In this document: positions 353-15,078 of the stretch, one piece after another
Position numbering within the stretch: the first letter of the stretch is position 1
How the letters are laid out: each line of letters starts with the position of its first letter
Assembly (NCBI RefSeq): GCF_018139625.1
Contig: NZ_JAGSOH010000078.1
Coordinates: forward strand, 1-34,287
DNA length: 34,287 nucleotides
Direction of reading: 5' to 3'
Source of the DNA: Actinospica acidithermotolerans
Lineage (GTDB): Bacteria; Actinomycetota; Actinomycetes; Streptomycetales; Catenulisporaceae
Position numbers and translations under genes: made by a program
Notes under the pieces: model-generated
The model's database searches: none
Told to the model about the DNA's origin: nothing
The model's input: only the letters and a program-made list of their open reading frames with translations

Positions 353-682
353 TCAGACCAGCTCGTATCCGGCCTCGTCGACCGCCTCGCGGACCTCGTC
401 CTCGGTCAGCGGACGGGTCGAGCCGACGGTCACCTTCTTGGCCTCGAGGTCCACCTGCACGCCGGTCACGCCCTCGATCGCGGACAGCTCGCGGGTCACC
501 GCGCCGGCGCAGTGGCCGCAGCTCATGCCGTGCACCGCGTAGACGGCGACGACCGGGGCGGCCGCGATGTCGGCGGACGGGGCGGCGGGCGCGGCGTTCT
601 CGGCGCTCGCGGCAGCCGGAGCGGAGGCCGCGGCGTTCCCGGCGGGCGCGGACGGCTTCGGGGTGATCTCGATCTCGGTCAT
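353..682 (-). CDS. copZ: HMA-domain copper chaperone with Ala/Pro-rich N-terminal extension
   Basis: The 109-residue product has a C-terminal HMA fold (about 45-109) with the motif MSCGHC (residues 53-58), the Cu(I)-binding CxxC loop of CopZ-type chaperones that hand copper to CopA. Typical CopZ proteins are 65-75 residues. Here about 42 extra N-terminal residues are an Ala/Pro/Ser/Glu low-complexity segment with no membrane helix. The start at 682 is the ATG of MTEIEITPK; longer readings run back through csoR in another frame. It lies 41 nt after csoR and 27 nt before copA, so all three are probably one transcript. Function follows from family knowledge and context; the role of the tail is unknown. 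Confidence 0.88.
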   Translation of the reverse strand: MTEIEITPKPSAPAGNAAASAPAAASAENAAPAAPSADIAAAPVVAVYAVHGMSCGHCAGAVTRELSAIEGVTGVQVDLEAKKVTVGSTRPLTEDEVREAVDEAGYELV

Positions 683-723
683 GGGGCGTTCGATCCTTCG
701 CTGGTACGGGGTGTTCGGGTTCT

Positions 724-1005
724 TCAGGAGCGGACCAGGCGGGCGATCGCCGCGGAGGCCTCGCGCACCTTCGCGTCCGCCACCTCGCCGCCTTCGGCCA
801 TGGCCTCGGAGACGCAGTGCGCCAGATGTTCCTGGAGCAGGCCGAGGGCCACCGACTCCAGGGCGCTCTTGGCCGCGGAGACCTGGGTGAGGATGTCGAT
901 GCAGTACTTGTCCTCCTCGATCATCCGCTGCAGGCCGCGCACCTGGCCCTCTATCCGGCGCAGACGCTTGAGGTAGTCGTCCTTGGCGTCCGTGTAACCG
1001 TGCAT
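724..1005 (-). CDS. csoR: CsoR-family copper-sensing transcriptional repressor
   Basis: This is a 93-residue all-helical repressor of the CsoR/RcnR family (DUF156). The Cu(I) ligand set is intact: Cys35 (DKYCIDIL), His60 and Cys64 (HLAHCVSE), matching the Cys-His-Cys spacing of copper CsoR proteins such as M. tuberculosis CsoR (36/61/65). The family motif RLRRIEGQVRGLQRMI is at about 14-29. The start at 1005 is preceded by a near-perfect GGAAGGAGG; an in-frame ATG at 1089 lacks this and would run through the operator. It heads the csoR-copZ-copA operon and should be released from its own promoter by Cu(I). The Cys/His/Cys set argues against RcnR or FrmR, which use other ligands. Confidence 0.93.
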   Translation of the reverse strand: MHGYTDAKDDYLKRLRRIEGQVRGLQRMIEEDKYCIDILTQVSAAKSALESVALGLLQEHLAHCVSEAMAEGGEVADAKVREASAAIARLVRS

Positions 1006-1029
1006 CCCGAGCCTCCTTCCGTCCGTCGA

Positions 1030-1059
1030 ACCATACCCCTGTAGGGTATACCACGTCGA
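1030..1059 (-). promoter_or_regulatory. csoR operon promoter with CsoR-type operator
   Basis: On the minus strand, TCGACG (1059-1054) and TATGGT (1035-1030) are 18 nt apart and look like -35 and -10 boxes. Between and over them lies the inverted repeat ATACCC-N5-GGGTAT (1033-1049), which has the GC-run-flanked-by-TAT form known for actinobacterial CsoR operators. It ends 28 nt before csoR, so binding would block RNA polymerase directly. The palindrome is seen; CsoR as its ligand is inferred. Confidence 0.75.
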
Positions 1060-1158
1060 CCCGCTCCGTCGACGGGACCGGTCCCCCACCGCTCTTCCTA
1101 CGCTGCCGGCAGCGGGCCGTCAGCGGCCCGGGGACGGCAGCGGAAGGAGCCATGCACC

Positions 1159-7669: not shown

Positions 7670-8965
7670 ATGAGCATATTCAGACGGTCACTGGCGCCGC
7701 TGCTGGTCGCGGCCGCCGTGCTCGCCGCCGACGTCGCACTGCCCGGCGCCGCGCAGGCGTCCGCGGCACCCGCCGACGCCGGGCACGGAAACAAGGTCGC
7801 GATCGGCTTCTTCACCCAGTGGAGCATCTACAGCGGCTTCCTCGAGAAGGATCTGATCGGCGACGGCGCGGCGAGCAAGCTGACCGAGATCAACTACGCG
7901 TTCTCCAGCGTGTCCGCCGACGGGCTGTGCACCTCCGGCGACTCGTGGGCCGACTACCAGAAGCCCTTCACCGCGGACCAGGCCGTGGACGGCGTCGCGG
8001 ACACCTCGACGCAGGCGCTCGCCGGCAACTTCAACCAGCTGCGCGAGCTCAAGGCGAAGTACCCGAAGCTGAAGATCGTGATGACGATCGGCGGCTGGTC
8101 CTGGTCGGGTCAGTTCTCGAAGATCGCCTCCACGGCCGCCGGCCGGCAGGCCTTCGTGAACTCATGCGTCGACCAGTACCTCAACGGCAACATCCCGGGC
8201 CTCGCGCCGGGCGCCGCGAAGGGCATCTTCGACGGCCTGGACATCGACTGGGAGTATCCGAACGAGCCCGGCGACAACAACCCGTACGGGCCGCAGGACA
8301 CCCCCGACTTCACCGCGCTGATGCAGACCTTCCGCAGCGCCGTGAACCAGGCGGGCGAGGCCAACGACGAGCACTACGTGCTGACCGCCGACGTCTCGCC
8401 GAACCAGTACGCCGCCGCGCAGCAGCTGCAGCTCCCGCAGCTGGCGAAGTCGCTGGACTGGTTCAACGTGATGACGCTCGACTTCCACGGCGGCTGGGAG
8501 AACCAGACCGACTTCAGCTCGAACCTGCTGCCCGACCCCAACGACCCGCAGGCCTCGAACGACAAGTTCTCCATCGTGCAGACCGTGCAGTACTACGAAC
8601 AGCACGGCGTCCCGGCGGACAAGATCTCGCTGGAGATCCCGTACTACGCGCACGCATGGACCGGCGTCGCGAACGTGGACAACGGGCTGTACCAGAGCGC
8701 GACGGGCGCCTCCGCCGAGGACCAGGCCGCGTACAACGTCGTCGTCAACCAGCCGGGCACGGTGCACTACGACCCGGTGACGGCGTCGATCTGGAAGTAC
8801 GACCCGGCCTCCGGCACGTTCTACACGTACGACACCCCGCAGACCATCGCGGAGAAGGGCATATACATCGACCTCGCGGGTCTGCGCGGCGCCTCGGTGT
8901 GGTCGCTCGACGGCGACACGAGCGACGGCGCGCTGACGAACGCCCTCGCGAGCTCGCTGTACTAA
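7670..8965 (+). CDS. Secreted GH18 chitinase, single catalytic domain
   Basis: The 431-residue enzyme has a signal peptide (residues 1-30, ending GAAQASA) and a family-18 glycoside hydrolase barrel. The SxGG-type strand is KIVMTIGGWSWSGQFS (135-150), and the catalytic motif FDGLDIDWEYP gives DxxDxDxE with acid/base Glu195. MTLDFHGGWE and the C-terminal SVWSLDGD strand are also typical. It would hydrolyse beta-1,4 links in chitin outside the cell by substrate-assisted catalysis. No chitin-binding or fibronectin-III domain is present, unlike many Streptomyces chitinases of 500-600 residues. The ATG at 7670 follows GAGGAGAG. Its stop overlaps the convergent gene's stop by 4 nt. DasR-like sites control the promoter. 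Confidence 0.95.
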   Translation: MSIFRRSLAPLLVAAAVLAADVALPGAAQASAAPADAGHGNKVAIGFFTQWSIYSGFLEKDLIGDGAASKLTEINYAFSSVSADGLCTSGDSWADYQKPFTADQAVDGVADTSTQALAGNFNQLRELKAKYPKLKIVMTIGGWSWSGQFSKIASTAAGRQAFVNSCVDQYLNGNIPGLAPGAAKGIFDGLDIDWEYPNEPGDNNPYGPQDTPDFTALMQTFRSAVNQAGEANDEHYVLTADVSPNQYAAAQQLQLPQLAKSLDWFNVMTLDFHGGWENQTDFSSNLLPDPNDPQASNDKFSIVQTVQYYEQHGVPADKISLEIPYYAHAWTGVANVDNGLYQSATGASAEDQAAYNVVVNQPGTVHYDPVTASIWKYDPASGTFYTYDTPQTIAEKGIYIDLAGLRGASVWSLDGDTSDGALTNALASSLY

Positions 8966-9417
8966 GACTCTGAGGGACCCCGGTCCCGCGGCTCCTGCTG
9001 CGGGTCCGGGGTCTCAGTTTTCGGGAGCCCCGCGCCGAAGATGAGAAAAGCGACGAGCAGCCACAGTCCGAGCCAGACGCGCAGCGAGACGGTGTCCGCG
9101 ACGACGAGGCCGTAGATGTAGACGCCGACGCCGACGAACAGGGAGCTGAGCCGTGGCACGTCCGCGTACTTACCGCGGCTGAATCCGCTCGCCGCTAGAC
9201 CGAACCCGGTCAGCAGCAGCGACGACACCCACCAACTGGGGAAGTTGTTCCACTCGATCCAGGCCGCTCCCGCGATCCACGGCACGCCGACGACGCCAAG
9301 GAAGGCCGCGTCGCTCATCTCCTTCGCGGGGGCCGTGCCCTCCTCTATCCGAGCGGCCGGCTCCGGCTGCTCCGGAAGGTACTCCTGCGGTATCGCGTCC
9401 TCGGGCTCTAGCGCCAT
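8962..9417 (-). CDS. Small four-helix membrane protein of unknown function
   Basis: The 151-residue product is not recognised. An acidic, proline-rich N-terminus (about 1-38) is followed by four hydrophobic segments: AAFLGVVGVPWIAGAAWI, WVSSLLLTGFGLAASGF, LFVGVGVYIYGLVVA and VWLGLWLLVAFLIFGAGL. The C-tail is hydrophilic (KTETPDPQQEPRDRGPSES). The start is uncertain. The ATG at 9417 gives a sensible N-terminus but has no clear ribosome site, and an in-frame ATG at 9468 is possible. It converges on the chitinase gene, and the two stop codons share nucleotides (8962-8965). Confidence 0.65.
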   Translation of the reverse strand: MALEPEDAIPQEYLPEQPEPAARIEEGTAPAKEMSDAAFLGVVGVPWIAGAAWIEWNNFPSWWVSSLLLTGFGLAASGFSRGKYADVPRLSSLFVGVGVYIYGLVVADTVSLRVWLGLWLLVAFLIFGAGLPKTETPDPQQEPRDRGPSES

Positions 9418-9436
9418 GCCTGCAGACGATAGAGCC

Positions 9437-9453
9437 CCCGGGTTAACTCCGGG
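9437..9453 (-). terminator. Weak hairpin downstream of copCD
   Basis: CCCGG (9437-9441) and CCGGG (9449-9453) can pair around the 7-nt loop GTTAACT, 71 nt beyond the copCD stop. The stem is only 5 bp and no T tract follows, so terminator function is a guess. Confidence 0.3.
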
Positions 9454-9523
9454 CCATCCCGGCCGCATCAGCCCGCTGAGAGCGCCTGCGCCGCCCCGAC
9501 AGGCCGCTTGAGCGCCCGTCAGA

Positions 9524-11284
9524 TCACGGGCTGATCTTCACCGGCACGTTGAGGGTCGTCTCGTCGAAGTCGTCGCTGCGGATCGTCACGCTCATCGTCC
9601 ACGTCCCGGGGAAGCTCAGCGTGAGCGGCTGGTCCACGTAGTGACCGGGCCCGTCCCGGATGACGGTCGCGTTGAGCGGGCCGACCTTCTCAGCCGGAAG
9701 GGTGAACTGAACCGTAAGCTCCGCCGCCGTGTAGGGCAGGCCCTTCGCGTCGTTGAGGTAGAGGTGCGTCTGGTTCTGGCCCTCGGTGCCCGGCCCCACG
9801 TAGATCGTGATGGTGCCGGAGGCCGTGCCGGTGTTGTAGTCGAGCGTGACGTTCGTCGGGCCGGTCTGGGCCGCCTCGACCGTGCGGCCGGGCTGGCTCT
9901 CGACCAGGATCGAGCTGATGCCCAGGATGACGAGCGCGACGACCGCCTCCAGCGCCACGGAGCGGCGCAGCTTGGCCAGCAGGCCGGCCGGCTCCATCCG
10001 CTGGGCCTGCGCGACGGCGACGCGGCCGGTGTGCTCGACCGTGCGCCGGATCCAGTCGCGGGCCATCCAGCCAAGTCCGGCGAGGATGCACAGGCCGCCG
10101 ATCTTCAGTACGACCATTCGGCCGTACGGGGTATTGCTCAGCGCCGCCCACGAGCCGACGTTGCGCCAGGTCTGGTAGATGCCGCTCGCCACCAGAGCGC
10201 CGACGCACGCGAGCGCCAGCCGCGAGAAGCGCTGAACGGACGTCACCGCCGTGGCCAGATCGCGGGTCGAGTCCGTCGCCGGCCGGCAGACGACCAGCAG
10301 CAGCATCGCCAGGCCGCCGAGCCAGAGTCCCATCGCGGTCAGGTGAACGAGGTCGGAGAACACCGCGATCGGAACCTGGATACCGGTCGACGCGTGGTCC
10401 GCCGCGGCCCACGTCGCCGCGCCGAGCACGCCGAGGAACCCGATCACTGCGACGAAGTAGGTGCGGCCTCGGGCGGTCGCGTTCGGCAGCCGGTTCAGTG
10501 TGGCGGCGAGGAGCGGAGCGGCAAGGGCGAGCAGCAGCAGTCGCGCGACGACGGCCTGCCCGAAGCGGGTGCCGAGCGTGCCGCTGAGCACGCTCGTGTC
10601 GAGCGCGCTGCCGAGCGGTAGTTCTCCCGCATAGGCGCCCTGTACGACGAGTACTCCGATCGCGGACGCGAGTGACGCCGTCCAGCCGATCGCCAACAGC
10701 CGGAACGACCGCCGATCGGACGCACCGCCGGGCCAGCACACCGCCAGAAAGGCGAATCCGCCGAACAGCAGCGCATAGCCCAGATAGCCCAGCCAGCGCA
10801 GCGCTCCGTAGAAGAAGCCGACGGCGGTGCTCGACTTCACGTTGATCGTGTTCTCGTTCACCTTCGTCGCCGACGCCGTGCCGACCGAGAACACGAACGC
10901 GCCCTCGACCGGGTGCGAGTCAGCGGAGATGACGTGCCACGCCACCGTGTACGTGCCGTAGCCCAGGCCTGACCTGAGGCCGATCTCGATCACGTCGGGG
11001 TCGGACGTCGCCTTCGTGCTGCCGTCGTCGACGCGGTCGCCGTTCGGGTCGAAGACCCGGATGCTGTCCGCGCTGACGCCCACGGCCTCGTCGAAGGTCA
11101 GCGTGACCTGGCTCGGCGCCCGGGAGACGATGTCGTTCGCCGCGGGGGCCGAGCCCTCGAGCGTGGCGTGCGCCGACGCGGGAGCCGCGACCGCGAGGAC
11201 GAGTCCGACTGCGACGGCTATGGCGGCGAGGAGGGCCCTGGCCCGGCGGAAGCCCGCCGGGCCAGGGACGGGACGCGAGGTCAC
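9524..11284 (-). CDS. CopC-CopD fusion copper-transport protein with extracellular C-domain
   Basis: The 586-residue protein has a signal peptide whose predicted cut (ASA|H) makes His39 the mature N-terminus, the first copper ligand of CopC domains. The CopC beta-barrel runs to about 135 and ends in SADSHPVEGAFVFSVG, where Asp122 and His124 complete the usual Cu(II) site. About eight membrane helices of the CopD type follow (about 155-465), then an outer beta-domain (about 480-586) like YtkA/FixH-type domains. The role is copper binding and import across the membrane. The GTG start at 11284 overlaps the ycnI stop as GTGA, so the two are translationally coupled. The ATG at 11338 would run into ycnI. 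Confidence 0.92.
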   Translation of the reverse strand: MTSRPVPGPAGFRRARALLAAIAVAVGLVLAVAAPASAHATLEGSAPAANDIVSRAPSQVTLTFDEAVGVSADSIRVFDPNGDRVDDGSTKATSDPDVIEIGLRSGLGYGTYTVAWHVISADSHPVEGAFVFSVGTASATKVNENTINVKSSTAVGFFYGALRWLGYLGYALLFGGFAFLAVCWPGGASDRRSFRLLAIGWTASLASAIGVLVVQGAYAGELPLGSALDTSVLSGTLGTRFGQAVVARLLLLALAAPLLAATLNRLPNATARGRTYFVAVIGFLGVLGAATWAAADHASTGIQVPIAVFSDLVHLTAMGLWLGGLAMLLLVVCRPATDSTRDLATAVTSVQRFSRLALACVGALVASGIYQTWRNVGSWAALSNTPYGRMVVLKIGGLCILAGLGWMARDWIRRTVEHTGRVAVAQAQRMEPAGLLAKLRRSVALEAVVALVILGISSILVESQPGRTVEAAQTGPTNVTLDYNTGTASGTITIYVGPGTEGQNQTHLYLNDAKGLPYTAAELTVQFTLPAEKVGPLNATVIRDGPGHYVDQPLTLSFPGTWTMSVTIRSDDFDETTLNVPVKISP

Positions 11285-12012
11285 GGATTCTCGCTCCGCC
11301 GCGTCTTGCGGACGTACAGCAGCGCCGCGACGCCGCACCCGGCGCCGATCGCACCGAGCACGAGGCCGGCGACGCCGAATCCGTCACTCGATGACGGACT
11401 GCCGGTACTGCCCACCGCGTCGGCGGACGTGGCGCCGGTAGTGGACGACGCCGTCGCCGTCGCCGAGGCCGCGGGCGTCAGCGTGAGCACGGGCGCCGGA
11501 TGGTCCGGGTCGGGGTTGGCGCTCGTGCTCAGGTCGATCCAGCGCACGACGTCGCCGTTCGAGTACGTCTGCACGGCCTTGAACGCGAGCTGCGTCGTGT
11601 CGCTCGGCAGCGGGTCGACCGAGATCTGGAAGTCCTGGTACTGGCCCGGCTGGATCGTCCCGCCGGTCCAGTCGATCTCGTTGACGGCGGTGGTGAACGT
11701 GCCGTCGTCGGTGGTCAGCGGCTTGGCGAGGGTGACCGTGTGCACGGCGATCGTCCAGCCGGGGACCGGCTTCGCGAGCACCTGGGCGATCGGGTACTGG
11801 GTGGGGATCTGCAGCTGGAGCGAGACGGTGTCCGCCTTCGACTCCTCGTTCGGCACCTTGAAGGTGAGTTCGGCGGTCGATCCCTGCGGCAGCGAGGCCG
11901 GGCTGACGGTGACGTGGGCGGACGCGGTGGCGGCGATCGCCAGTCCGGCGAGCGTGAGGGCGCCGACGATGGCGGCGCGACGGCGTGCGGGCACGCCGGA
12001 GGAAGGCAGCAT
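11281..12012 (-). CDS. ycnI: YcnI/DUF1775 copper-binding protein, membrane anchored
   Basis: The 243-residue protein has a signal peptide ending ATASA, so the mature chain starts HVTVSPASLPQGS with His33 first, the mono-histidine brace position of YcnI domains, which bind Cu(II). The DUF1775 beta-domain spans about 33-185 (TAELTFKVPNEE, GWTIAV, IQPGQYQDFQISV). A Ser/Thr/Ala linker leads to one helix (GVAGLVLGAIGAGCGVAALLYV) and a basic tail KTRRSENP. It is a periplasm-side copper metallochaperone acting with CopCD, with which it overlaps by GTGA. The ATG at 12012 is the only start in frame before an upstream stop. It lies 13 nt after the next gene in the same direction. Confidence 0.92.
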   Translation of the reverse strand: MLPSSGVPARRRAAIVGALTLAGLAIAATASAHVTVSPASLPQGSTAELTFKVPNEESKADTVSLQLQIPTQYPIAQVLAKPVPGWTIAVHTVTLAKPLTTDDGTFTTAVNEIDWTGGTIQPGQYQDFQISVDPLPSDTTQLAFKAVQTYSNGDVVRWIDLSTSANPDPDHPAPVLTLTPAASATATASSTTGATSADAVGSTGSPSSSDGFGVAGLVLGAIGAGCGVAALLYVRKTRRSENP

Positions 12013-12025
12013 GAAGTTAAAGCCC

Positions 12026-12658
12026 TTACATAGAAGAGTTGACGGGACACCTCCTGTTCATCCTGAGCAGGGCGAACGCAGGCGGCCCGCGCAGCACCCG
12101 CGGACTGGGCGCCGGACCGGCCGGCGGCGATGTCGTGCGCCGTGCCGTGACGTGGATTCCGCGCCGCAGCGGCGAGGGCGGCACGACGCCGAGCGCGGCG
12201 GCGAACCGTCCGGCGAGGAGGTCGGCGGCCGGGGCCACGAGCAGCCCGACGGCGCGGCAGAGGTCGAAGAAGCCCCGCTCCCCGCTTCCCAGCCACCAGC
12301 CGCCGACGAGGACGGCCAGGGCGTGCGCCAGGATCATGGCGGCCGCGCCGTGGTCGGTGCCCGCCGCGTAGCCCGGCATCCCCGGCATCGTCTTCGGGCA
12401 GAACCACCCGAGCTCTACGTGCAGCCCGAGCTGCCCGAGCCCGAGGGCCGCCGTGACCGTCAGCGGCGACCGCTCCTTGTGCGCGAACCCGTAGGCCGCG
12501 AGCCAGACGATCGGCAGCGCCAGCATCGGCCCGACCCACCCGGGGTCGCTGCCGTTCGCGAGCCGGTGCAGTTCGGTGCCCGTGCCGACGCACACGAGCG
12601 CGAACAACGCCGCCCGAAACGCCCTGGCCGTGGTTCCACCGAAGTGCATGGCCCCCAT
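12026..12658 (-). CDS. Polytopic membrane protein with CPKTMPGMPG motif, copper operon
   Basis: The product (about 210 residues) has about five hydrophobic segments (near 13-33, 43-59, 66-82, 104-124 and 130-150) and an Arg/Pro-rich soluble tail. The loop between helices 3 and 4 reads HVELGWFCPKTMPGMPGYAAGTDH, dense in Cys, Met and His that could bind Cu(I). It is the first gene of the operon that continues with ycnI (13-nt gap) and copCD, which supports a role in copper handling. The start is uncertain: Met at 12658 or 12649, with no strong ribosome site; a longer reading to 12736 lacks support. The family was not recognised. Confidence 0.68.
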   Translation of the reverse strand: MGAMHFGGTTARAFRAALFALVCVGTGTELHRLANGSDPGWVGPMLALPIVWLAAYGFAHKERSPLTVTAALGLGQLGLHVELGWFCPKTMPGMPGYAAGTDHGAAAMILAHALAVLVGGWWLGSGERGFFDLCRAVGLLVAPAADLLAGRFAAALGVVPPSPLRRGIHVTARRTTSPPAGPAPSPRVLRGPPAFALLRMNRRCPVNSSM

Positions 12659-12742
12659 ATTGACGTACCGGCCACGCCGGGTGAATGGCGGGGGGTGGCG
12701 CGCGGCCGCCGTAGGGGCGCGAATGGTCGACGGCACGAGCCG

Positions 12743-12801
12743 TTCACGCTGTCGGACCCCGGGTCTACGGTGAGTAGTGACAGGGGTGCGGGGGCACCCC
12801 T
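12743..12801 (+). promoter_or_regulatory. Promoter and 5' hairpin before the DUF5134-like gene
   Basis: TTCACG (12743-12748), 17 nt and TACGGT (12766-12771) form a plausible promoter with a start near 12778. Immediately after it, AGGGGTGC (12782-12789) and GCACCCCT (12794-12801) form a perfect 8-bp stem with a GGGG loop. It ends 4 nt before the ribosome site CGGAGGGA (12806-12813). The stem could be an operator or an mRNA 5' structure. No known motif was recognised. Confidence 0.45.
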
Positions 12802-12819
12802 TATGCGGAGGGATGTCTC

Positions 12820-13527
12820 GTGCGCTCGATTACGCCGCTTCTGGCCTGGTTCTTCACTCTTGTGCTGCTTCTCCTGGCAGCCAGGGCCACGGCGTGCCTG
12901 GTCGTCTCCCGGCCGGCGCGACGAGGGCGGCAAGCGCGCAGCGATCGCGTGCGAGACATCGACCGTAACCGGGAGTTCGGTCACGCCGCGATGGCCCTGG
13001 GCATGGCCGCGCTGCTGGCACCCGGCATACCGAGACCCCCGTCGGTCGTCAGCGTGACGTTCTTCGCCGCGCTGGCCGCGTGGGCCGCCTTCGACTGGTG
13101 CCAACGCCTCCTGGCCCGAATCCGCGGCCGCGAAGTGAGATCCTGCACGGGGGCGGCGGCCGCAGGCCCCCACCTGCTGGACCCGCACCACGCCATCGTC
13201 AGCGCGGCGATGGTGGTGATGCTCCTGCGGCCGGGGATGGGTGCGGCGTCGGCGTCGGCCTCGGCGGTAACCGGCTCCGCGATGCCCGGAATGGCGATGG
13301 GCGCAGCACCCAGCACGCCCACCCTTCTACTCGTCGGCTACGTCTGGATCGCCGCCCTGGTCCTCGGCGTCGGCATGACTCGCGTGCTCGCGGTAGCGGC
13401 CGCGCCGGCCGGAAGCCCCGGCCAAGATCACGCATGCCGTTCTCAGGCCGTGCTCTCCTCCCCCGCCACCGTCTACGCCTGCGAACTGGCGATGACCGTC
13501 CTGACGGGGCTCATGCTCGTAACCTGA
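12820..13527 (+). CDS. DUF5134-like integral membrane protein
   Basis: The 235-residue protein has five to six hydrophobic segments. The paired His signatures EFGHAAMALGMAALL and LDPHHAIVSAAMVVMLL are of the kind seen in actinobacterial DUF5134 proteins. A Met-rich loop SAMPGMAMG lies near residue 155, similar to MPGM motifs in the neighbours at 12026 and 14101. The GTG at 12820 is well placed behind CGGAGGGA. The first helix (LLAWFFTLVLLLLAARATACLVV) may be a signal anchor. The function is unknown; His and Met pairs in the membrane and the setting suggest metal binding. It is followed 4 nt later by a GNAT gene that may be co-translated. Confidence 0.75.
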   Translation: MRSITPLLAWFFTLVLLLLAARATACLVVSRPARRGRQARSDRVRDIDRNREFGHAAMALGMAALLAPGIPRPPSVVSVTFFAALAAWAAFDWCQRLLARIRGREVRSCTGAAAAGPHLLDPHHAIVSAAMVVMLLRPGMGAASASASAVTGSAMPGMAMGAAPSTPTLLLVGYVWIAALVLGVGMTRVLAVAAAPAGSPGQDHACRSQAVLSSPATVYACELAMTVLTGLMLVT

Positions 13528-13531
13528 TCCC

Positions 13532-14104
13532 GTGACAGCAACGCTCACGATCCCCGGCACGGCCACCGCCCCCGCGCTCACCCTGCGCCCCTGGCTACCC
13601 CGTGACATCCCCGCGCTGGTCAAAGCCCACGCCGACCCCGCGATGCAGCGCTGGCTGCTGCGCCACGTCGACGACGCCGACCAGGCCCGCGCGACGCTGG
13701 ACGAACAGGCCGCGCAGTGGGCCGCCCGGACCCGCTTCGTCTTCGCCGTGGTGGAGAACGAAGCCGCCGCACCGGCCTCGGCGACCCCGATCGCCTCCGT
13801 ATCGGTGCGCCGCATCGCCAAGCTCCCCCACGCCGCCGAAGTCGGCTACTGGACCGCGCCCGAAGCCCGCTCCCGCAACATCGCCACCCGCGCCGTCGAA
13901 GCCGCGATGCGCTGGTCCGCCGCCCAATGGGCCGCTGACGGCGAGCCCATCACCCGCTTCGAACTCATCCACTCGCTCGGCAACGACGCCTCCTGCCGGG
14001 TAGCGCAGAAGCTCGGCTTCACCCTCGCCCACGAACTCCCGGCCTTCCCGCCCAAGTTCCCCGACCCGGGCCACCTCCACGTGCGGGAGTGGGCCGGCGG
14101 TTAA
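13532..14104 (+). CDS. GNAT-family N-acetyltransferase (RimJ/RimL-like)
   Basis: The 190-residue product has the RimJ/RimL type GNAT fold. The N-terminal strand TLRPWLPRDIPALVKAHADP, the central EVGYWTAPEARSRNIATRAVEAAMRWS (acetyl-CoA loop, about 109-135) and FELIHSLGNDASCRVAQKLGF (motif B, Asn donor) are all visible. It would acetylate an unknown amine, perhaps a protein N-terminus, with acetyl-CoA. The acetyl-CoA loop normally reads R-x-x-G-x-A; here the Gly is Asn (RSRNIA). The GTG start at 13532 lies 4 nt after the upstream stop without its own clear ribosome site, so re-initiation is likely. Its stop overlaps the convergent ctaG stop by 4 nt. Confidence 0.9.
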   Translation: MTATLTIPGTATAPALTLRPWLPRDIPALVKAHADPAMQRWLLRHVDDADQARATLDEQAAQWAARTRFVFAVVENEAAAPASATPIASVSVRRIAKLPHAAEVGYWTAPEARSRNIATRAVEAAMRWSAAQWAADGEPITRFELIHSLGNDASCRVAQKLGFTLAHELPAFPPKFPDPGHLHVREWAGG

Positions 14105-15078
14105 GCCGCCGGCCCCGGGTTCCGCTGGGCCAGGCCGGCCAGGTACTCGTTGTACTCGTTCAGCTCGGCGTCGCCGTCGCGGTCGGCCTTGCGGTCCTTG
14201 CGCTTCGCCTCGCGCTGGTCGGACTTGGCCCACTGCACGAACAGCACCAGCAGGACGATGATCGTGGGCGCCTCGCCGAAGGCCCAGGCGATCGAGCCGG
14301 CGGTGTTCTGGTCGCTGAGGGCGGTCAGGCCCCAGGAGGACGGAGGATTGGCGAAGACGCTCTCGAACAGGGAGTTCGACATCATGATCGCGATGCCGAA
14401 GAACGCGTGGAACGGCATGACGGCGAACAGTTCGAGGATGCGGATCACGAAGGGCGAGCGGTGCGGGGCGGGGTCGACGCCCATGACCGGCCAGAAGAAG
14501 AGCAGGCCGACGAACAGGAAGTGCACCAGCATGAAGTCGTGGCCTACGCGGCTCTTCATCAGGAAGTCGAACAGCGACGTGAAGTAGAGGCCGTAGAGGC
14601 TCACGACGAACAGCGGCAGCGTGAACAGGGGCGAGGAGACGACTTTCGCGAACCTGCTGTGCAGCAGGGCGAGCAGCACTTCGCGGGGGCCGGTGCGACC
14701 GGGTCCGGCGGGGTGCAGGACGCGCAGGGCCAGGGTGATCGGCGCGCCGAGGAGCAGGAACAGCGGGTCGACCATGGAGAGCATCATGTGCTGCACCATG
14801 TGCGCGCTGAACAGGTACATGCCGTACTCGTTCAGGCCGGTGCAGGTGATGCCGAGGAAGATCAGCATGCCGGCGAGGAAGCTGGCCGTGCGGCTGATCT
14901 GCCAGGCGTCTCCGCGCTGCCGCAGCCGCAGCACGCCGAACAGGTACATGCCGGTCGCCACGATGGTGGCGGCGAGGAAGAACGGCTCGGGATGCCAGTT
15001 CAGGTAGGACGAGATCCCGGGCGGCGGAAGGGTGTCCGCACCCGGCATCCCCGGCATTCCCGGCATGCTGCTGGCCAT
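14101..15078 (-). CDS. ctaG: CtaG-type cytochrome c oxidase assembly factor
   Basis: The 325-residue protein is of the caa3_CtaG family (DUF1404-type), with about seven membrane helices. The conserved segments LFSAHMVQHMMLSMVDPLFLLLGAPITLALR and MLVHFLFVGLLFFWPVMGVDP carry the family His residues. These proteins assist Cu insertion into heme-copper oxidases. The N-terminus is Met-rich (MASSMPGMPGMPGADT). The C-tail is charged and cytoplasmic. The ATG at 15078 is preceded by GAGGCGAGGG. It lies only 22 nt beyond the nuoN stop on the same strand, so it may be the last gene of the nuo transcript. That would place a terminal-oxidase assembly factor together with complex I genes. Confidence 0.92.
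   Translation of the reverse strand: MASSMPGMPGMPGADTLPPPGISSYLNWHPEPFFLAATIVATGMYLFGVLRLRQRGDAWQISRTASFLAGMLIFLGITCTGLNEYGMYLFSAHMVQHMMLSMVDPLFLLLGAPITLALRVLHPAGPGRTGPREVLLALLHSRFAKVVSSPLFTLPLFVVSLYGLYFTSLFDFLMKSRVGHDFMLVHFLFVGLLFFWPVMGVDPAPHRSPFVIRILELFAVMPFHAFFGIAIMMSNSLFESVFANPPSSWGLTALSDQNTAGSIAWAFGEAPTIIVLLVLFVQWAKSDQREAKRKDRKADRDGDAELNEYNEYLAGLAQRNPGPAA

Follow-up and report, generated by a model that had tools for sequence, protein, structure and literature searches.

A probable copper-sensing ribosome-arrest leader ahead of ycnI-copCD in Actinospica acidithermotolerans

A contig of Actinospica acidithermotolerans (NZ_JAGSOH010000078.1, positions 1 to 34,287; the whole stretch of 34,287 nucleotides is called here the window) carries on its minus strand, at 12026..12658, a gene for a predicted four-transmembrane (TM) protein of 210 amino acids, placed ahead of the copper genes ycnI and copCD. 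With an estimated probability of about 0.72, this 12026 gene acts in cis as a copper-sensing arrest leader, i.e., an upstream open reading frame (uORF) that would control ycnI-copCD, and it is best read as a new member of the arrest-leader class described in December 2025. An earlier note on this DNA had seen in its product one of three membrane proteins of a copper relay from import to oxidase assembly, based on a shared Met-rich motif, MPGM. The most striking conserved element of the protein, the C-terminal R[G/A]PP, was unnoticed there. An apparent uncharacterised copper relay protein is thereby recast as a testable gene-regulatory switch.

The C-terminal arrest motif of the putative leader family

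In a first search, relatives of the 12026 protein were found in 8 of the 14 genomes of the taxonomic family, own genome included, and a 12-member alignment showed Arg15, Cys23, His31, His112 and RGPP as invariant, with His80 in 11 of 12. Within the class, the family profile is present in 137 of 394 genomes, frequently in multiple copies. A scan of named genomes, seeded with the N-terminal peptide and not with RGPP, yielded at least 57 loci. The alignment used for most residue counts (A2) takes in 62 of the 69 hits from loci L045-L101, duplicates removed; entry required the arrest motif, a stop codon and a findable N-terminal R-A motif, so that the A2 counts of R[G/A]PP and of the N-terminal R-A are conditioned by the selection. 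All counts on 63 members, 115 hits and 105 downstream open reading frames (ORFs) are among the matches listed. The window protein matched neither Pfam nor NCBIfam, and no PDB entry matched it at E 0.001 or better. Over the 63 members, Pfam gave no family at E 0.01 and NCBIfam two weak matches, in one member each. Homology of the leader family to DUF5134 was rejected, with an hhalign probability of 0.1%.

Of the 115 listed hits, 112 carry R[G/A]PP close to the C-terminus, equal to 104 of 107 distinct ones, a count not conditioned by A2. The 112 consist of 107 RGPP, four RAPP and one further RGPP, and the three hits without the motif are a contig ending inside it, a frame that ends early and a degenerate fragment. 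Between 3 and 17 residues follow the motif in 110 of the 111 cases measured, and 62 in one. As a control, 475 non-family genes of the named loci hold four RGPP, none of them within 20 residues of the end; these genes came from a simple gene caller, which misses genes, since it recovered 50 family genes against 69 known hits. In the members linked to ycnI the codons of the arrest motif are synonymously variable, which argues for selection on the peptide. The residues flanking R[G/A]PP are poorly conserved, and variable codons together with such flanks are the expected look of selection on a short arrest peptide.

In the window, the predicted ribosome-arrest site is the RGPP of residues 190-193 (codons CGC GGG CCG CCT, 12080..12091, minus strand), 17 codons before the stop. 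Arrest leaders of this class are small proteins (under 300 amino acids) with R[A/G]PP close to the C-terminus, a downstream gene on the same strand and a membrane or secretion signal. The 210-residue window protein ends in this way, and ycnI, the presumed regulated gene for a copper chaperone (11281..12012, minus; DUF1775, PF07987, E 1.2e-46), begins 13 nt past the leader stop codon (gap at 12013..12025, minus). Four helices in the structure model and a positive-inside pattern over the 63 members indicate a membrane protein. The reading frame is open to GTG 12736, and the family alignment makes ATG 12658 the more likely start.

According to the published account of this class (PMC12992588), R[G/A]PP has been proven to arrest ribosomes; RGPP does so more robustly than the other motifs compared, and in many phyla no tetrapeptide is more strongly excluded. 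Seven Streptomyces lividans proteins ending in R[A/G]PP are reported there to cause motif-dependent arrest in vitro and in a Bacillus subtilis reporter; YcnI-like chaperones are among their downstream genes, and TM segments are present in most uORFs of ycnI-family genes (PMC12992588). SLIV_18480 is described in the same source as having four TM segments and a copper site predicted to consist of three His and one Met, with a metal-related gene downstream (PMC12992588). Compared by description, SLIV_18480 and the window protein are alike, as small four-TM membrane proteins with three conserved His, a C-terminal R[A/G]PP and a metal-related downstream gene; SLIV_18480 itself probably precedes a ycnI-like gene. 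The window protein differs in heading ycnI-copCD, in having a second copy that heads PCuAC-Sco-DyP, in the MPGM of its loop and in the 17 residues after RGPP.

The predicted sensor domain and the proposed mechanism

His31 (codon 12566..12568, end of TM1), His80 (12419..12421, end of TM3) and His112 (12323..12325, TM4), all on the minus strand, are each present in 63 of 63 A2 members, as is Gln76. Over all aligned hits the respective values are 107/107, 106/107 and 106/106. Cys23 (12590..12592, minus, TM1) is likewise found in 63 of 63, a count conditioned by the scan seed, of which this Cys is part, and in 105 of 107 over all aligned hits. In the A2 members, Met makes up 10.5% and His 7.1% of the TM3-TM4 loop, compared with 1.8% and 1.9% outside it. 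At least two Met occur in the loop of 57 of the 63 members, M-x(1,2)-M in 47 and the exact MPGM in 7. Thus the conservation in orthologues that the earlier note had called for holds for a Met-rich loop and fails for MPGM itself, which is incidental in the leader family. Downstream classes for the loop, junction-pairing and copper-neighbour counts were assigned by regular expressions; the Met/His-rich loop is common to ycnI-linked members and to those linked to extracytoplasmic function (ECF) sigma factors and PepSY genes, whereas the four Sco-linked members have a Met-poor His-Cys loop and RAPP instead.

Positive-inside counts over the 63 relatives place the loop of the 12026 protein outside, while hydropathy of this single protein gives three of the four TM segments only. 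Together, the three conserved His and the outer loop rich in Met and His resemble a metal sensor. The distance from the Gly at the end of TM4 to the Arg of R[G/A]PP is 36-73 residues (median 58), a spacing by which the sensor can be out of the ribosome tunnel at arrest in most members.

In the proposed mechanism, the nascent chain would insert with its N-terminus inside, so that the TM3-TM4 loop and His31, His80 and His112 would be turned towards the outer face, and the ribosome would stall on its own RGPP at the peptidyl-transferase centre, with the sensor domain already out of the tunnel. When there is little copper outside, the ribosome would stay arrested and ycnI-copCD would be on; copper binding would reshape or pull the nascent sensor, the arrest would be relieved and downstream expression would fall. 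In the ycnI operons of streptomycetes, the arm following RGPP would pair with the Shine-Dalgarno region of ycnI, and arrest would open this site. In the window, the downstream step could be of the Rho type, as in CruR. Either route would give the outcome of low copper with the genes on. If the copper part is true, a nascent membrane protein senses a metal on the far side of the membrane, and the ligand sets appear to vary with the regulated gene.

CruR (DUF2946) of Bordetella is reported to act through arrest that controls termination by Rho, the operon being switched off by copper, and the operons that it heads may hold Sco, PCuAC, YcnI and CopC (PMC9426467). By that account, CruR and the window gene share the link to copper, the position as a uORF heading a copper operon and a C-terminal motif of the RAPP type (PMC9426467). 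On the other hand, CruR has an N-terminal export signal and its copper is proposed to be perceived in the cytoplasm (PMC9426467), whereas the window protein has four TM segments and sensing is predicted outside the cytoplasm. Membership in CruR/DUF2946 (PF11162) was rejected, as the Pfam search of the 63 members gave no family at E 0.01 and the window protein is without CXXC. Leaders of the SecM/MifM type also have their arrest near the C-terminus, and the streptomycete ycnI operons show a similar layout, with possible pairing over the downstream Shine-Dalgarno sequence; SecM/MifM-type leaders sense secretion or insertion, not metal.

For the junctions between leader and downstream gene, 79 of the 115 hits were usable. 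Across 16 streptomycete ycnI junctions, 14 to 16 form the six pairs CCGUAC/GUACGG, with almost no covariation, because both arms barely vary. Pairing within the best 5% was found in 11 of 30 ycnI junctions, 1 of 34 ECF, 3 of 11 PepSY and 0 of 4 Sco junctions, and since the ycnI rows are related, the ycnI hits represent few independent events.

A full four-TM domain with a long Met-rich loop exceeds what an arrest peptide needs, and relief of the arrest would release a complete protein. Both points would suit a dual role, in which the finished product of the arrest leader is kept in the membrane to buffer or chaperone copper; such a role is unlikely, and CruR, as its authors report, was undetected in earlier proteomics and is suggested to be short-lived (PMC9426467).

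Several observations weigh against the 12026 gene as a copper-sensing arrest leader. ECF sigma-factor genes are the commonest downstream partners of the family (48 of 105), in a largely streptomycete sample, and none of nine PepSY-linked hits has any of five tested copper genes nearby, for which reason the ligand may not be copper throughout the family. Of the tails measured, only one exceeds the 17 residues after RGPP in the window. The RNA of the window junction folds no better than shuffles (z -0.47), and the segment after RGPP does not pair significantly with the ribosome site of ycnI (z -1.3, rank 0.17); a Shine-Dalgarno-sequestering hairpin in the window itself was therefore set aside as unsupported by the folding and pairing tests. 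The structure model, with its four helices, is of moderate quality (predicted local distance difference test, pLDDT, 73.9; predicted template modelling score, pTM, 0.52). Finally, arrest, copper ligand and direction of the response are predicted for the 12026 protein from family sequence and from analogy with S. lividans and CruR, and the putative orthology to SLIV_18480 from a match of descriptions.

Downstream genes, gene copies and alternative readings

Same-strand downstream ORFs, picked by a rule of length and GC content and then compared with Pfam, were obtained for 105 of the 107 distinct hits, two being without one. Sigma-70 region 2 was matched in 48, DUF1775 in 34 and PepSY_TM in 12; rarer matches were SCO1-SenC (four), PCuAC, E1-E2 (metal) ATPase and MauE (one each). 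Copper genes (DUF1775, SCO1, PCuAC, E1-E2 ATPase) are downstream in 40 of the 105. For 19 of 23 ECF-linked hits in the named loci, ycnI or PCuAC is in the locus: 11 have ycnI, in loci where another family hit is also present, and 8 have PCuAC. ECF sigma factors encoded behind leaders are candidate copper-response sigma factors. At ten of the named loci (at least 57 in all), the family occurs twice on the same strand, as a rule in front of ycnI and of an ECF sigma factor. As a separate observation, ECF sigma factors stand directly behind Met/His-rich family copies in L048, L050, L051, L053, L055 and other loci.

The genome of A. acidithermotolerans itself holds three copies. The first is that of the window, at the head of ycnI-copCD. 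The second (contig C389, L163:6635-9900) heads PCuAC-Sco-DyP peroxidase, with a PCuAC protein that ends in MPGM, and the third (contig C56, L162:3355-4041) heads genes for DUF929 (thioredoxin-like) and VKOR. A separate leader at each operon favours action in cis, because a relay protein is needed once and a leader at every operon.

A membrane protein that binds Cu(I) and acts in trans, passing copper between YcnI/CopCD and CtaG, close to what the earlier note proposed, would fit the Met/His-rich outer loop, the three conserved His, the copper-handling neighbours and the clustering of 4 out of 34 MPGM sites. It leaves unexplained the near-universal C-terminal R[G/A]PP and its codon variability, the separate leaders of two copper operons, the copies linked to sigma factors and VKOR, and the arrest activity published for R[A/G]PP (PMC12992588). 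Decidedly unlikely, it was rejected as the principal account of the 12026 gene on the motif, the operon-wise copies and the published arrest. From the earlier note the link to copper is retained, as the copper-gene neighbours are conserved, the Met/His-rich loop is predicted outside and three His are conserved; the relay is abandoned for the 12026 gene, given the C-terminal R[G/A]PP, one copy per operon and S. lividans proteins of similar description that stall ribosomes. As a caution, genes ending in R[G/A]PP are not to be called chaperones or transporters on Met-rich loops alone.

The C56 copy bears on the question of the signal. In this copy His31 is replaced by Phe, His80 by Asp and His112 by Gln, two Cys are in the loop, and RGPP is kept. 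Its homology to the C389 copy is seen in 35% identity (E 1e-11), and a search for the C56 type at E 1e-8 among 197 genomes returned only the own genome and one genome of the same order. A leader that monitors membrane insertion or envelope redox instead of copper, with structural His and Met, would be in accordance with this paralogue at the head of a thioredoxin-like/VKOR pair and with arrest peptides of localization pathways, which are reported to be released by the Sec or YidC machinery (PMC12992588). This is very unlikely for the window gene: 40 of 105 members have a copper gene downstream, and the sole redox-linked copy found is the one without the three His and with two loop Cys. Another possible sensor variant, a family copy with His80 replaced by Asp, was observed in locus L012 of a relative (G003).

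Tentatively, and with somewhat less than an even chance, the family may be a modular one of four-TM nascent-chain sensors, in which the His/Met version senses external copper and the Cys version the thiol state. If so, the copper version would govern ycnI, PCuAC-Sco, copper ATPase, PepSY and dedicated ECF sigma-factor genes and the Cys version thioredoxin-like/VKOR genes, and the leader-linked ECF sigma factors would be copper-response sigma factors.

The arrest-leader reading also suggests what an unexplained membrane gene in front of the sco operon of Streptomyces may do. The sco, PCuAC-like and copCD genes of S. coelicolor are described as a single operon (SCO3968-3963), with SCO3968, an 'integral membrane protein', and SCO3967, a 'hypothetical membrane protein', ahead of sco (PMC3603459). 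In S. lividans, dtpA is reported in the same operon as sco (sco-ecuc-SLI_4212-dtpA; PMC4736821). The order leader-ycnI-sco-PCuAC-copCD in L079, L098 and L099 suggests that SCO3968 is the leader and SCO3967 is ycnI. The Streptomyces Sco operon likewise holds Sco, PCuAC-like, CopC-CopD and DyP genes, which in A. acidithermotolerans are divided between two loci that have a leader each.

MPGM motifs and neighbouring genes of the window

The three Met motifs reported earlier are all in frame at their places: CPKTMPGMPG in the 12026 protein, with MPGM in the TM3-TM4 loop that is predicted to be extracytoplasmic (codons 12377-12388, minus), SAMPGMAMG in the DUF5134 protein (MPGM codons 13282-13293, plus) and SMPGMPGMPG at the N-terminus of CtaG (15046-15066, minus). 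The three genes belong to three transcription units, which corrects the earlier picture: 12026-ycnI-copCD leftward, DUF5134 rightward and ctaG leftward. In the 7.89 Mb genome (both strands, all frames), ATGCCNGGNATG occurs 34 times, and its reversed control 12 times. Four of the 34 MPGM-coding sites fall inside 3,053 bases, in three genes, where about 0.013 would be expected by proportion. Among the 30 sites inspected with their surroundings, two further ones are in copper-linked proteins, namely the PCuAC protein encoded on contig C389 and, on C28, a paralogue of the DUF5134 protein. The remaining inspected sites resemble response regulators, unrelated enzymes and non-coding frames; thus MPGM is not copper-specific. 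That the shared MPGM is a coincidence of flexible Pro-Gly-Met loops in high-GC membrane proteins, with no role in metal binding, would agree with its exact form in only 7 of 63 leader members and 2 of 28 printed DUF5134 members (window included), but is highly improbable in view of the clustered sites and of a loop with about six times the Met of the rest of the protein.

Pfam bears out the identity of the neighbours as first named, i.e., YcnI/DUF1775, a CopC-CopD fusion, DUF5134 and Caa3_CtaG. A mature N-terminal His is also predicted for YcnI and CopC, at Ala-Ser-Ala/His sites read by eye from the translations. The CopC-CopD fusion (YcnJ-like; PF04234 and PF05425) lies at 9524..11284 (minus) in an ORF listed to 11338; its start is probably GTG 11284, which overlaps the ycnI stop, as judged from the sequence. 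A scan of 11200-13600 for sigma-70 promoters and terminators found none.

The DUF5134 membrane protein is encoded at 12820..13527 (plus), divergent from the leader (PF17197, E 2.1e-15; 57.5 bits against a cut-off of 29), and the Caa3_CtaG oxidase assembly factor at 14101..15078 (minus; PF09678, E 1e-84; 284 bits against 27.7). With the caa3 CtaG equivalog TIGR02737, the 14101 gene scores 40.5 bits, below the cut-off of 279.35. By positive-inside counting, the CtaG N-terminus and the Met-rich loop of DUF5134 are predicted outside; as both expose Met-rich segments, copper binding by the two proteins is plausible. Between their genes lies that of a GNAT acetyltransferase (13532..14104, plus; Pfam), for which nothing was found to tie it to the system.

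The CtaG N-terminus is of the MPGM type in the window and in two relatives (G001 and G003). In Catenulispora it starts MGDGMSGPGWM, and in three genomes of the same order MDH-GHGM-M. Of 28 other CtaG hits printed, 23 lie in open frames of at least 620 amino acids, with no MPGM there; these are presumably CopD-CtaG fusions. One CtaG row (L193), in a wrong frame, was ignored in the CtaG/DUF5134 listing. A CopD-CtaG fusion of Corynebacterium and genetic interactions of B. subtilis ctaG are discussed in the literature (PMC13344008). The DUF5134 members vary, several having Met-rich loops and many being without, and a literature search on the name DUF5134 gave no paper in the collection searched. 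In the DUF5134 proteins of L132-L160, patterns like H..M..GM..M recur by eye inside the TM helices, which is suggestive of an intramembrane metal site.

Other genes of the window include a small membrane protein after copCD (8962-9468, minus), without a Pfam match, and an ORF at 353-1153 (minus) whose translation ends in a GMSCGHC heavy-metal-associated (CopZ-like) domain and which is predicted from it to be a further copper gene. The neighbourhood of ctaG, leader, ycnI and copCD is kept in two relatives (L164 and L165 compared with the window). In G001, where DUF5134 was not found, ctaG is directly upstream of the leader; in G003, DUF5134 adjoins the leader, as in the window.

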